DNA of 50,353 nt, from assembly GCA_016180645.1 (NCBI GenBank), contig JACPAV010000047.1:1-50353 (forward strand), read 5' to 3'. Positions within the stretch are counted from its first letter, which is position 1. Each line of letters begins with the position of its first letter. Origin of the DNA: Nitrospirota bacterium (GTDB lineage: Bacteria; JACPQY01). Shown here one piece after another: positions 1,268-43,033 of the stretch. The position numbers were made by a program, and so were the translations under genes. Below the pieces are notes generated by a model. It did not search any database and was not told the origin of the DNA. It saw only the letters and a program-made list of their open reading frames with translations.

Positions 1268-1425
1268 GTCGGGCTTCGTTGGGACGCGAAAACCCCGTAG
1301 AAGCTTACCGCGGCCAGATCACCGAAGGTGCCTACCTTCCGGGTGAACGGCCTTCCCCTGAGTTTTCTCGCGCCCTGACGTCCCTCTCCGAGCGGACCCA
1401 TCCACAGGGGTCCTCGTTTTCCTCA

Positions 1426-2199
1426 TTACGCCCATGTCTTCCAAGGCGCTTGCCCTCGGGCCCAGATGTCATTGAGGAGGAGGTAATCCCGGTGGGTATC
1501 CATCGCCTGAAAAAATCCGCTATGGCGATACGCCGCCAACTGTCCGTCCTCCGCAAGGCGCCTCAGGGGCTCCCGTTCAAGCGCGACGCCGCCGTCAAGA
1601 TAGTCGAAGATCTTCTTCCCGAAGACGAAAAATCCTGCGCTCACCCACCCCTCCAACTGCGGCTTCTCCTGGAAGCGTCTGACACGGTCCTGCTCCCCGA
1701 GCTCAACCACGCCCCAGCGCGAAGGGGGTCGGACGATCGTCACCGTCCCGATCCGGCCGCTCCGCCGATGAAAATCCAACAGGGCCTCCAGATCAAGATC
1801 GGCCAGACCATCTCCGTAGGTCAACATAAATTCATCCTCATCGATGTATTTCTCAATCTTCTTCACCCGCTCCCCTGTTTCCACGGTCGAACCGGTGTCG
1901 GCCAGAGTCACCCGGAAATCCTGTTCATCGTGGGCCCCAAGGAACTGCACGTCTTCCGTATGTCCCAAGCGGATTGAGAAATCGTTGTTCATGGCCTCGT
2001 AGTTGAGGAAGTACTCCTTGATCATGCTGCCCCGGTAGCCCAGGCAAAGAACGAACTCCCGGAACCCCTTGTGGGCGTACAGCTTCATGATGTGCCATAG
2101 GATGGGCCGCCCTCCGATCTCCACAAGGGGTTTGGGCCGGAACTCGGTCTCTTCACGCAAGCGAGTTCCGAGCCCACCGCACAAGATGACAACTTTCAT
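1426..2199 (-). CDS. rfbF: Glucose-1-phosphate cytidylyltransferase
   Basis: This enzyme makes CDP-glucose from CTP and glucose-1-phosphate, the first step towards CDP-linked 3,6-dideoxyhexoses and branched sugars such as yersiniose. The 257-residue length matches the family. The N-terminus MKVVILCGGLGTRLREET is the nucleotide-binding signature, followed by RPKPLVEIGGRPILWHIMK, which is highly specific for RfbF. YGDGLADLDL and the FQEKP motif are also present. The gene is divergent from the GT2 at 2305. The expected partner, CDP-glucose 4,6-dehydratase (rfbG), is not in the window, but a dehydratase of RfbH/ColD type is at 11472. Confidence 0.93.
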   Translation of the reverse strand: MKVVILCGGLGTRLREETEFRPKPLVEIGGRPILWHIMKLYAHKGFREFVLCLGYRGSMIKEYFLNYEAMNNDFSIRLGHTEDVQFLGAHDEQDFRVTLADTGSTVETGERVKKIEKYIDEDEFMLTYGDGLADLDLEALLDFHRRSGRIGTVTIVRPPSRWGVVELGEQDRVRRFQEKPQLEGWVSAGFFVFGKKIFDYLDGGVALEREPLRRLAEDGQLAAYRHSGFFQAMDTHRDYLLLNDIWARGQAPWKTWA

Positions 2200-3459: not shown

Positions 3460-3491
3460 ATCGCGAACTGCGGGCAGAGCTTGACTTAGTG

Positions 3492-3586
3492 CGTCTAACA
3501 GAATGCGTAGGGGAGGGTCTTCAGACCCTCCCGACAAGAGGGAGCATCTGAAGATGCTCCCCTACGAATCGGCATTCTGTTAGACG
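3492..3586. repeat. 95-bp element with 15-bp terminal inverted repeats and two internal hairpins
   Basis: The ends are perfect inverted repeats: CGTCTAACAGAATGC at 3492-3506 and its complement at 3572-3586. Inside lie two hairpins with 10-bp arms and 2-nt loops: GGGAGGGTCT at 3511-3520 with its complement at 3523-3532, and GGGAGCATCT at 3540-3549 with its complement at 3552-3561. A 48-nt stretch (3533-3580) is repeated exactly, in inverse orientation, at 28992-29039. There is no room for a transposase, so it behaves like a MITE or REP-type passive element. Confidence 0.85.
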
Positions 3587-3618
3587 GGGGTCGCTGGATC
3601 GAGCCGTGCCTCACGGGA

Positions 3619-4506
3619 TTGCTCGGTAGCCGGCACCCCACACACGTCATCGTCGTAGACAATAACTCGACGGACGGGACGCCGAAGACCATTGCGGAAA
3701 AGTTTCCCCAAGTCGAGTTGCTCGCGCAGCCCGTGAATACCGGCTTCGGAGGCGGGAACAATATCGGATTCGCGCGGGCCTTGGAGTTGGGCGCTCGATA
3801 TGTCTTCGTATTGAACGTCGATACCCAGGTTCCGGCAGACACCATCGGAACGCTCATCCGCTTGGCATCATCGAATGACGATTACGGGATCATCAGCCCG
3901 ATCCATCTCAATTACGAAAGCACCCGTATCGACACGCTTTTCGGATTCTTCCTACATCGCGCGGGTCTGGCGGATTTCTTTTCCGACCTCTACCTTGGGA
4001 GGGCTAGAGACCTCTATCCGATCTCCTTTACGCCCGCCGCAGCTTGGCTCATGACCCGGACCGCCCTCGAGAAGGTGGGCGGTTTTGATCCCCTTTTCCA
4101 CCCCATCTACGGAGAAGACGATGATCTGTGCAATCGGATCATCCATCACGGCTTCAAGATCGGGATCACGCCGCGCGCAACGATAGGCCATTGGCACGGG
4201 AGTCACTCTTCCGAAACCCCCGCCACCCATATGAGCTTTCGAAGAAGCTACCGCTCCTGCTACGGCGAGTGGGTCGCCCATCTCAAGAAGCCGGGGGGAT
4301 CGTTCTTTCTGCACTACCTAAGTTTGCTGAGGGTTTGTATGACCGAATTCGTCTCCGCTGTTCTCTACCTGAACCCACGGAAATTTGCCGTGTCTGCTCT
4401 CACCCTGGGGGTGGTTTCGCTCAGAATGGGAAGAATCTTTCACCATCGCAAAAAGTGCATGACCGAGCCGGGCGTGTGGCTGGATGGGCTTGGGGTCAAG
4501 TCTTGA
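3619..4506 (+). CDS. Family 2 glycosyltransferase, rhamnosyltransferase-like, N-terminus disrupted by a repeat
   Basis: The body is a clear GT2 protein of the WbbL type: HVIVVDNNSTDGTP, NTGFGGGNNIGFARAL, FVLNVDTQV (DxD position), AAAWLMTRTALEKVGGFDP and FHPIYGEDDDLCNRI. The C-terminus has a hydrophobic stretch near residues 232-262. The usual first strand (VSIVILNxN) is missing. The frame opens only at 3511, inside the 95-bp element, and has no ATG or GTG; TTG at 3619 is the first usual start codon and removes about 25 residues. The element contributes in-frame residues reading RIGILLDGGRWIEP, which could partly replace the lost strand if translation started at an unusual codon. It may be a pseudogene. 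The stop codon lies within the next repeat. Confidence 0.7.
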   Translation: MLGSRHPTHVIVVDNNSTDGTPKTIAEKFPQVELLAQPVNTGFGGGNNIGFARALELGARYVFVLNVDTQVPADTIGTLIRLASSNDDYGIISPIHLNYESTRIDTLFGFFLHRAGLADFFSDLYLGRARDLYPISFTPAAAWLMTRTALEKVGGFDPLFHPIYGEDDDLCNRIIHHGFKIGITPRATIGHWHGSHSSETPATHMSFRRSYRSCYGEWVAHLKKPGGSFFLHYLSLLRVCMTEFVSAVLYLNPRKFAVSALTLGVVSLRMGRIFHHRKKCMTEPGVWLDGLGVKS

Positions 4507-4565
4507 ATTGATACGGCTATCGGACGACCGCTCAACCAAGTTGTCTCAAGTCAAGACTTGACCCC
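4492..4565. repeat. Inverted repeat pair, REP/BIME-like
   Basis: GGGGTCAAGTCTTGA at 4492-4506 and its exact complement at 4551-4565, 44 nt apart. The left arm contains the stop codon of the preceding GT2; the right arm ends just before the next gene's start. Its GGGGTCAnGTCTTGA form resembles repeats I associate with REP-associated tyrosine transposases; that link is from memory and no transposase gene is in the window. Confidence 0.75.
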
Positions 4566-28871: not shown

Positions 28872-28991
28872 CTTCGTTGGTGCATGGCCGGCATCAAATG
28901 GCGGCAGGAGTATAGCCATGACCCCGCGGAGTCGCAACTTGTTTTAGTCGGCGAAGGCCCGTGTCCGGAGGGGTCCGACCCAGAGCCTCTG

Positions 28992-29076
28992 ACAGAATGC
29001 CGATTCGTAGGGGAGCATCTTCAGATGCTCCCTCTTGTCCTTGCCTCCTCGTAGGGGAGCACCTACAGGTGCTCCC
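28992..29076. repeat. Two-hairpin dispersed element, second copy
   Basis: 28992-29039 is identical (inverse orientation) to 3533-3580. Hairpin one has GGGAGCATCT at 29011-29020 with its complement at 29023-29032. Hairpin two has GGGAGCACCT at 29055-29064 with its complement at 29067-29076. Both are preceded by CGTAG and followed by TCTTG. It fills most of the gap between the Wzz-like gene and the SH3 gene. Confidence 0.85.
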
Positions 29077-29109
29077 TCTTGCCCCCGGATGCAGGGGGTG
29101 GCCGGGAAC

Positions 29110-42124: not shown

Positions 42125-43033
42125 ATGGGGGAGGGGAGGTGTTTCATCTGTGGCGGTGTGAGTCGGATCTTTTGGAAGGGCGATGAAGCTGCCCTCCATG
42201 ATTGTCGGTCCTGCCGGCTCCTGTATATCTGGCCAAGACCCCCCGGACTTTCAGGCCTGATGCCTGGAGGCTCCCTCCGATCCCGTAGCGGGGCCGCCTG
42301 TAGCAGAGCCTTTAGGCTCTGCCGCTCCGGCGGGCTCCGCGAAGCTCATTCTTTGGACACGTCAAAGTATGTTAGGGACGGCCATCTCCACGTGGCCAAG
42401 TCGGGAGTCTATGGCCGGATTCTGGATCGCATACAAGTTCACAAACGCGGCGGGAGCCTTCTCGATGTCGGCAGTCACGTCGGAGGTTTTCTTTTGTTGG
42501 CCCGCGAGCGCGGATTCAAAGTGACGGGGGTCGAGCCGAGCCTGCCCACCGCTCGCCTGGCCCGCCGGTACGGACGGTTCAAGATCTGGAGCACCACGTT
42601 CGATCGCGCACCCGTCAAAAGCGGCTCCGTGGACGTCCTCACCCTGTTGGACGTGATCGAACATCTCGACGACCCGATTGGCGCGCTGAACCGTGCGGGC
42701 CGGCTCCTGAGAAAACACGGGATCCTTGCCATCAAGACCCCTTCCCTTGCCTACACCCGCCTCAAGCTGGCGATTCTCGACCCCCTTCGTCGGAATGTAC
42801 CCCGCTGGCTCTATCTCGAACCCGGAGGTCACCTACAGTATTTTTCTCCTCGTGCACTTCAAAAGATGCTGAACCGGGCAGGCTTCGAAGTAATGGGTGT
42901 AGAGAGCCTCCCGTATGAGCCGGCAGTCGACGGACGATGGAGATCCCGGGTTCTCAATGCCCTTGCGCGCCCCGGGCACGGCCGCCCTTCTCCGCTGGCA
43001 AGGGACATGCTGTGCCTGGCCGTCAGGCCATGA
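42125..43033 (+). CDS. SAM-dependent methyltransferase with N-terminal zinc-ribbon, carrying a repeat insertion
   Basis: 302 residues. The first 31 hold two CxxC pairs (CFIC at 6-9, CRSC at 27-30), a zinc-ribbon common in sugar-linked methyltransferases. The class I methyltransferase domain follows: GGSLLDVGSHVGGFLLLARE (motif I, SAM binding), VTGVEPS, VDVLTLLDVIEHLDDP and KHGILAIKTPS. The linker, about residues 39-74, is encoded by a palindromic repeat region (42240-42345) and reads as Arg/Ser/Gly-rich low-complexity sequence in frame, replacing the usual tyrosine-rich segment. The gene stays open but may be impaired. The stop overlaps the next start (ATGA). Likely substrate: a sugar of the glycan. 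Confidence 0.75.
   Translation: MGEGRCFICGGVSRIFWKGDEAALHDCRSCRLLYIWPRPPGLSGLMPGGSLRSRSGAACSRAFRLCRSGGLREAHSLDTSKYVRDGHLHVAKSGVYGRILDRIQVHKRGGSLLDVGSHVGGFLLLARERGFKVTGVEPSLPTARLARRYGRFKIWSTTFDRAPVKSGSVDVLTLLDVIEHLDDPIGALNRAGRLLRKHGILAIKTPSLAYTRLKLAILDPLRRNVPRWLYLEPGGHLQYFSPRALQKMLNRAGFEVMGVESLPYEPAVDGRWRSRVLNALARPGHGRPSPLARDMLCLAVRP
42300..42322. repeat. Hairpin inside the methyltransferase gene, same plan as the GTAG-stem family
   Basis: GTAG, then GCAGAGCCT at 42303-42311, a TT loop, and AGGCTCTGC at 42314-42322. It has the same layout as the hairpins at 3511, 3540, 29011 and 29055 but a different arm sequence. It sits within a longer GC-rich repetitive stretch, about 42240-42345. Confidence 0.65.

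Follow-up and report, generated by a model that had tools for sequence, protein, structure and literature searches.

GTAG-tagged REPs (repetitive extragenic palindromes), their dimers with different stems and their clustering at genes for RAYTs (REP-associated tyrosine transposases) have already been published (PMC3733652, PMC2817692, PMC3116915). In the families described by Di Nocera et al. 2013 (PMC3733652), a GTAG head precedes a short stem, mostly of 6-9 bp and up to 13, with a loop of 2-3 nt in many families. Subfamilies with alternative complementary stem residues were reported there, as were dimers of different stems, some of them inside longer palindromes. The REPs that flank RAYT genes in inverted orientation in Haemophilus and Thioalkalivibrio (Nunvar et al. 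2010, PMC2817692) follow the plan GTAG-stem-CT-2 nt-AG-stem, for example GTAGGTCGGCCTTCAGGCCGAC, and in Pseudomonas fluorescens two inverted REPs make up one folding unit, the REPIN, which is extragenic, clustered at RAYT genes and found in tandem arrays (Bertels and Rainey 2011, PMC3116915). In vitro, single-stranded GTAG hairpins are bound by TnpA-REP proteins, which also cleave them; cleavage by the E. coli TnpA-REP requires GTAG, and with the REPtrons that have perfect palindromes, stem mismatches reduce cleavage (PMC8266576).

The hairpins analysed here resemble all of these systems, and are a well-known kind of bacterial repeat, met in one more genome. They are set apart from the families of PMC3733652 by the genome and, probably, by their stem set (GGGAGCATCT/GGGAGGGTCT and so on), from the Haemophilus and Thioalkalivibrio REPs by another arm sequence and by more stem types around one RAYT, and from the P. 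fluorescens REPINs by pairs whose stems usually differ and by a palindromic frame around many units. We conclude with high confidence that they are non-autonomous GTAG-tagged REPs, mostly arranged in inverted pairs (REPINs/BIMEs) and dispersed by the genome's own RAYT, an HUH/Y1 single-strand transposase.

The window (the whole stretch of 50,353 nucleotides that was analysed) contains the following elements.

3489..3584, no strand assigned: framed REPIN, outer arms GTGCGTCTAACAGAATG ... CATTCTGTTAGA enclosing two inverted REPs
3507..3532, plus strand: REP, GTAG at 3507-3510, arms at 3511-3532, stem type GGGAGGGTCT-TC-AGACCCTCCC, perfect pairing
3540..3565, minus strand: REP, stem type GGGAGCATCT-GA-AGATGCTCCC at 3540-3561, then CTAC at 3562-3565, perfect pairing
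28983..29084, plus strand: framed unit, truncated, in which the left frame arm GAGCCTCTGACAGAATG precedes two REPs of direct orientation
29007..29032, plus strand: REP, GTAG at 29007-29010, stem type GGGAGCATCT-TC-AGATGCTCCC at 29011-29032, perfect pairing
29051..29076, plus strand: REP, GTAG at 29051-29054, stem type GGGAGCACCT-AC-AGGTGCTCCC at 29055-29076, perfect pairing
42300..42321, plus strand: GTAG hairpin belonging to a third REP family, which is small, GTAG then 8 bp CAGAGCCT-TT-AGGCTCTG, perfect pairing

An earlier note had placed five hairpins of the window on one shared plan. All five indeed pair perfectly; a single family of five was rejected, as four belong together and the one at 42303 is separate (GTAGC[A/G]GAGCCT). 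The pattern of the latter family is GTAGC[A/G]GAGCCT-TT/TC-AGGCTC, and the stem at 42300, which has an M50 protease gene on one side and the methyltransferase domain of the following ORF on the other, measures 9 bp when the last G of GTAG is counted in. The REP at 3540, whose GTAG is a minus-strand one, is the inverted partner of that at 3511, and the whole framed unit folds into a single long hairpin (-38.2 kcal/mol, z -11.5, DNA parameters) between two glycosyltransferase genes. In the stretch 3489-3660, the open frame of the downstream glycosyltransferase gene, whose N-terminal part is missing, starts within the REPIN without a start codon. The unit at 28983-29084 corresponds to the left portion of longer units with three REPs at L185 and L188, and is flanked by a minus-strand gene and a plus-strand SH3-domain gene. 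TCTTG, previously taken for a conserved flank of the hairpins, is not a universal flank; for the most part it links the two REPs within a pair. The window also contains a 74-bp inverted repeat (4492-4565) with ends GGGGTCAAGTCTTGA; since these ends also flank, inverted, two larger Y1 transposase genes of the same genome (L031, L032), this repeat is probably the miniature remnant of a Y1 transposase element flanked by TIRs (TIRYT-like).

The GTAG hairpin pattern was matched 252 times (128 + 124) genome-wide, i.e. about 250 copies in 4.7 Mb, against none for the reversed pattern used as a control; the exact pattern GTAGGGAGCATCT, one G short, gave no matches. Only 3 of the 60 genomes searched hold the hairpin pattern: the genome itself, one of the same family, and G010. 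With CGTAGG as anchor we found 160 stems of 10 bp, and with scrambled anchor hexamers none. The REPs are extragenic, as just 10 of 133 lie in ORFs of at least 250 aa, though such ORFs span 78% of the bases. Pairs are mostly inverted and fixed in spacing, with 61 bp from CGTAG to CTACG in most of them, and 47 of 60 framed units are of equal length. We also observed tandem arrays of 132- and 176-bp units, each made of a REPIN plus ACCAACATAAACCTTTCAAAAAATGGCAAAAGTCGAGCTNAG (L137 37-494; ends of contigs C3, C11, C13, C19 and C46). Several contigs start in such units, where the assembly therefore probably broke. Other repeats are nested or adjacent: GGCCATG...CATGGCC palindromic inserts are present within REP hairpins (L174, L053, L054), and some framed units adjoin a further palindrome resembling CTATCGAGGCTNAGCCTCGATAG (L069, L067, L138).

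We analysed the pairing of the stems in a collection that is not biased towards structure, selecting each CGTAGGGG[A/C]G on its left side alone. Among the 183 distinct contexts obtained in this way, 148 are perfect 10-bp stems with a 2-nt loop, 22 deviate from full pairing at one or two positions (unpaired or G-T), and 13 are not hairpins. The upper 6 bp are paired in 153 contexts, as compared with 46 (maximum 65) after permutation. The genome has eight perfect stem types, six in the GGGA series (GGGTC, GCATC, GCACC, GGACC, GCAGC and GGGCC) and two in the GGGC series (GGATC and GGGTC). They differ in both arms at once, which bears out the earlier observation that differences in one arm are matched in the other. 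A covariation test on an alignment of 38 distinct hairpins, of which other genomes contributed five, gave the same result: 54 both-side changes were counted versus 18.4 in shuffles (a number reached in 0 of 500 shuffles) and at most 7 in slid controls, and 6 of the 10 stem pairs have changed on both sides. The fraction of paired cells was 97.1% (83.8% in shuffles, 38-56% in slid controls), a value biased towards structure because this alignment omitted distinct non-hairpin 27-mers; the left-anchored count and its permutation are free of this bias. The variation is concentrated in the middle of the stem, while the three G-C pairs at its start and the CT..AG tip are nearly constant. In one copy GGGTCT is combined with AGGCCC, a G-T intermediate that links two stem types.

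The earlier note argued that random drift would break the pairing, so that the folded form seems either selected or copied as a unit. The stem types do differ in a compensatory manner; single copies, however, drift, with 22 of the 170 hairpins carrying unpaired or G-T positions. Both readings hold; the uncompensated changes of individual copies fit decay after insertion, as expected.

The genome has seven matches to Y1_Tnp. One of these genes (G000:C5:35023-35490) encodes a RAYT of 156 aa by the NCBIfam model NF047646 (100.5 bits, cut-off 80), its closest solved structure by sequence is TnpA-REP (4er8), and its PDHxH (HUH) motif and catalytic tyrosine, Y125, are invariant across relatives. It lies among 12 clustered REPs of these stem types, and is very probably the protein, sought since the hairpins were first noticed, that recognises them. 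In the region L035 the RAYT gene (1411-1881, minus strand) has REPs of the same family on both sides, at 1168-1355 and 1913-2291, i.e. a REPtron arrangement. A second RAYT (L036; 88 bits with NF047646) sits among its own family of 8-bp hairpins, GTAGC-CGCAGGCT. Related RAYTs from one Desulfobacterales genome (L088), one Stahlbacteria genome (L089) and G010 (L152) are also flanked by GTAG hairpins, with different, self-matching arms. The G010 protein is the best match to the RAYT outside its own genome, and its gene runs directly into a REP whose GTAG gives an in-frame TAG. The closest relative genome, G001, which has 10 hairpin copies, speaks against dispersal by the RAYT: the best RAYT match there (37% identity) has hairpins of the other, 8-bp family at its flanks. 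These copies may thus be relics, or their RAYT may lie in a missing part of G001.

Hairpins as short as these could in principle arise by chance in GC-rich DNA, and their length is all that speaks for such an origin. In a 0.80-Mb sample made up of the window and 40 genome stretches, picked at copy-rich places, we found 241 stems that pair perfectly over at least 8 bp around a 2-nt loop, versus 18 in a Markov-1 control. GTAG/CTAC was present on 209 of these 241 hairpins, which had been gathered regardless of GTAG, and on 1 in the control. These numbers refute a chance origin, to which we assign practically no probability. The same association counts against hairpins that act mainly as RNA (terminators, mRNA 3′ ends or processing sites), with covariation reflecting selection on transcripts, as GTAG is outside the stem. 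The location outside long ORFs and the strong folding (calculated with DNA parameters) would fit a role in RNA, and GTAG REPs elsewhere were suggested to act as RNA too (PMC3733652). However, an Rfam search of the window gave no match, the stems are not followed by a T run, and the REP cluster surrounds a transposase gene. In addition, the pair at 29007 is at no 3′ end, because it lies upstream of the plus-strand SH3-domain gene and has the minus-strand gene on its other side. We therefore regard a mainly RNA function as very improbable.

If the RAYT acted on nothing but the REPIN, the many copies that have spread inside the longer palindromic frame would be left unexplained. CAGAATGCCGATTCG, which adjoins a REP at about 80 places, is part of the outer arms GAGCCTCTAACAGAATG / GTGCGTCTAACAGAATG around the pair; the genome has about 118 frame arm ends, and conservation of the frame ends about 14 bases out. 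The mobile unit might be a MITE of about 105 bp that has GAGCCTCTAACAGAATG/GTGCGTCTAACAGAATG as terminal repeats, makes TNA target duplications and depends on a DDE transposase for its movement, with the REP pair as mere cargo. Besides the number of frame ends, this would account for the REPs of the second family carried by a few frames (L171, L174), and for the triplets beside the frame ends, which match each other in 11 of 35 units (against an expected 4.6; P 0.0008), precisely at the frame end, and are a weak sign of a 3-bp target duplication. However, the other 24 units have no matching triplets despite near-identical interiors, and a search of the genome by PF01609 found no DDE_Tnp_1 transposase gene for the frame. 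None of the frames that were read lacked REP-like cargo, while REPs are also found frameless, including those around the RAYT, and there is a precedent for REP dimers within long palindromes in GTAG-15 and CGTC-1 (PMC3733652). A MITE as the mobile unit is, therefore, unlikely; we are equally doubtful of two independent routes of spread for one hairpin family, with the REPINs as cargo in a palindromic MITE of a different (DDE) transposase.

The hairpins are very probably spread by a single-strand-cutting RAYT that reads the GTAG tag and the folded stem. Judging from TnpA-REP biochemistry, the RAYT would bind GTAG and the hairpin on single-stranded DNA, cut beside the hairpin and paste copies elsewhere. 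Only foldable copies would then be copied again; stem bases would therefore be free to change provided that both arms change together, with GTAG, the first three G-C pairs and the CT-NN-AG tip remaining nearly fixed. A copy, once inserted, would drift freely. The earlier proposal that it is the hairpin, folded as a single strand, that is recognised is supported by this biochemistry, single-stranded DNA being its likely form because this is what TnpA-REP proteins bind and cleave in vitro (PMC8266576).

Apart from the question of recognition, our results confirm known REP biology in one more genome. For that question, this genome is a clean natural set in which to ask what a RAYT reads. Several interchangeable stems with a common GTAG, GGG base and CT-NN-AG tip surround one RAYT, and related RAYTs in three other genomes have kept GTAG with different arms; together, these narrow recognition to the tag, the fold and a few base pairs.
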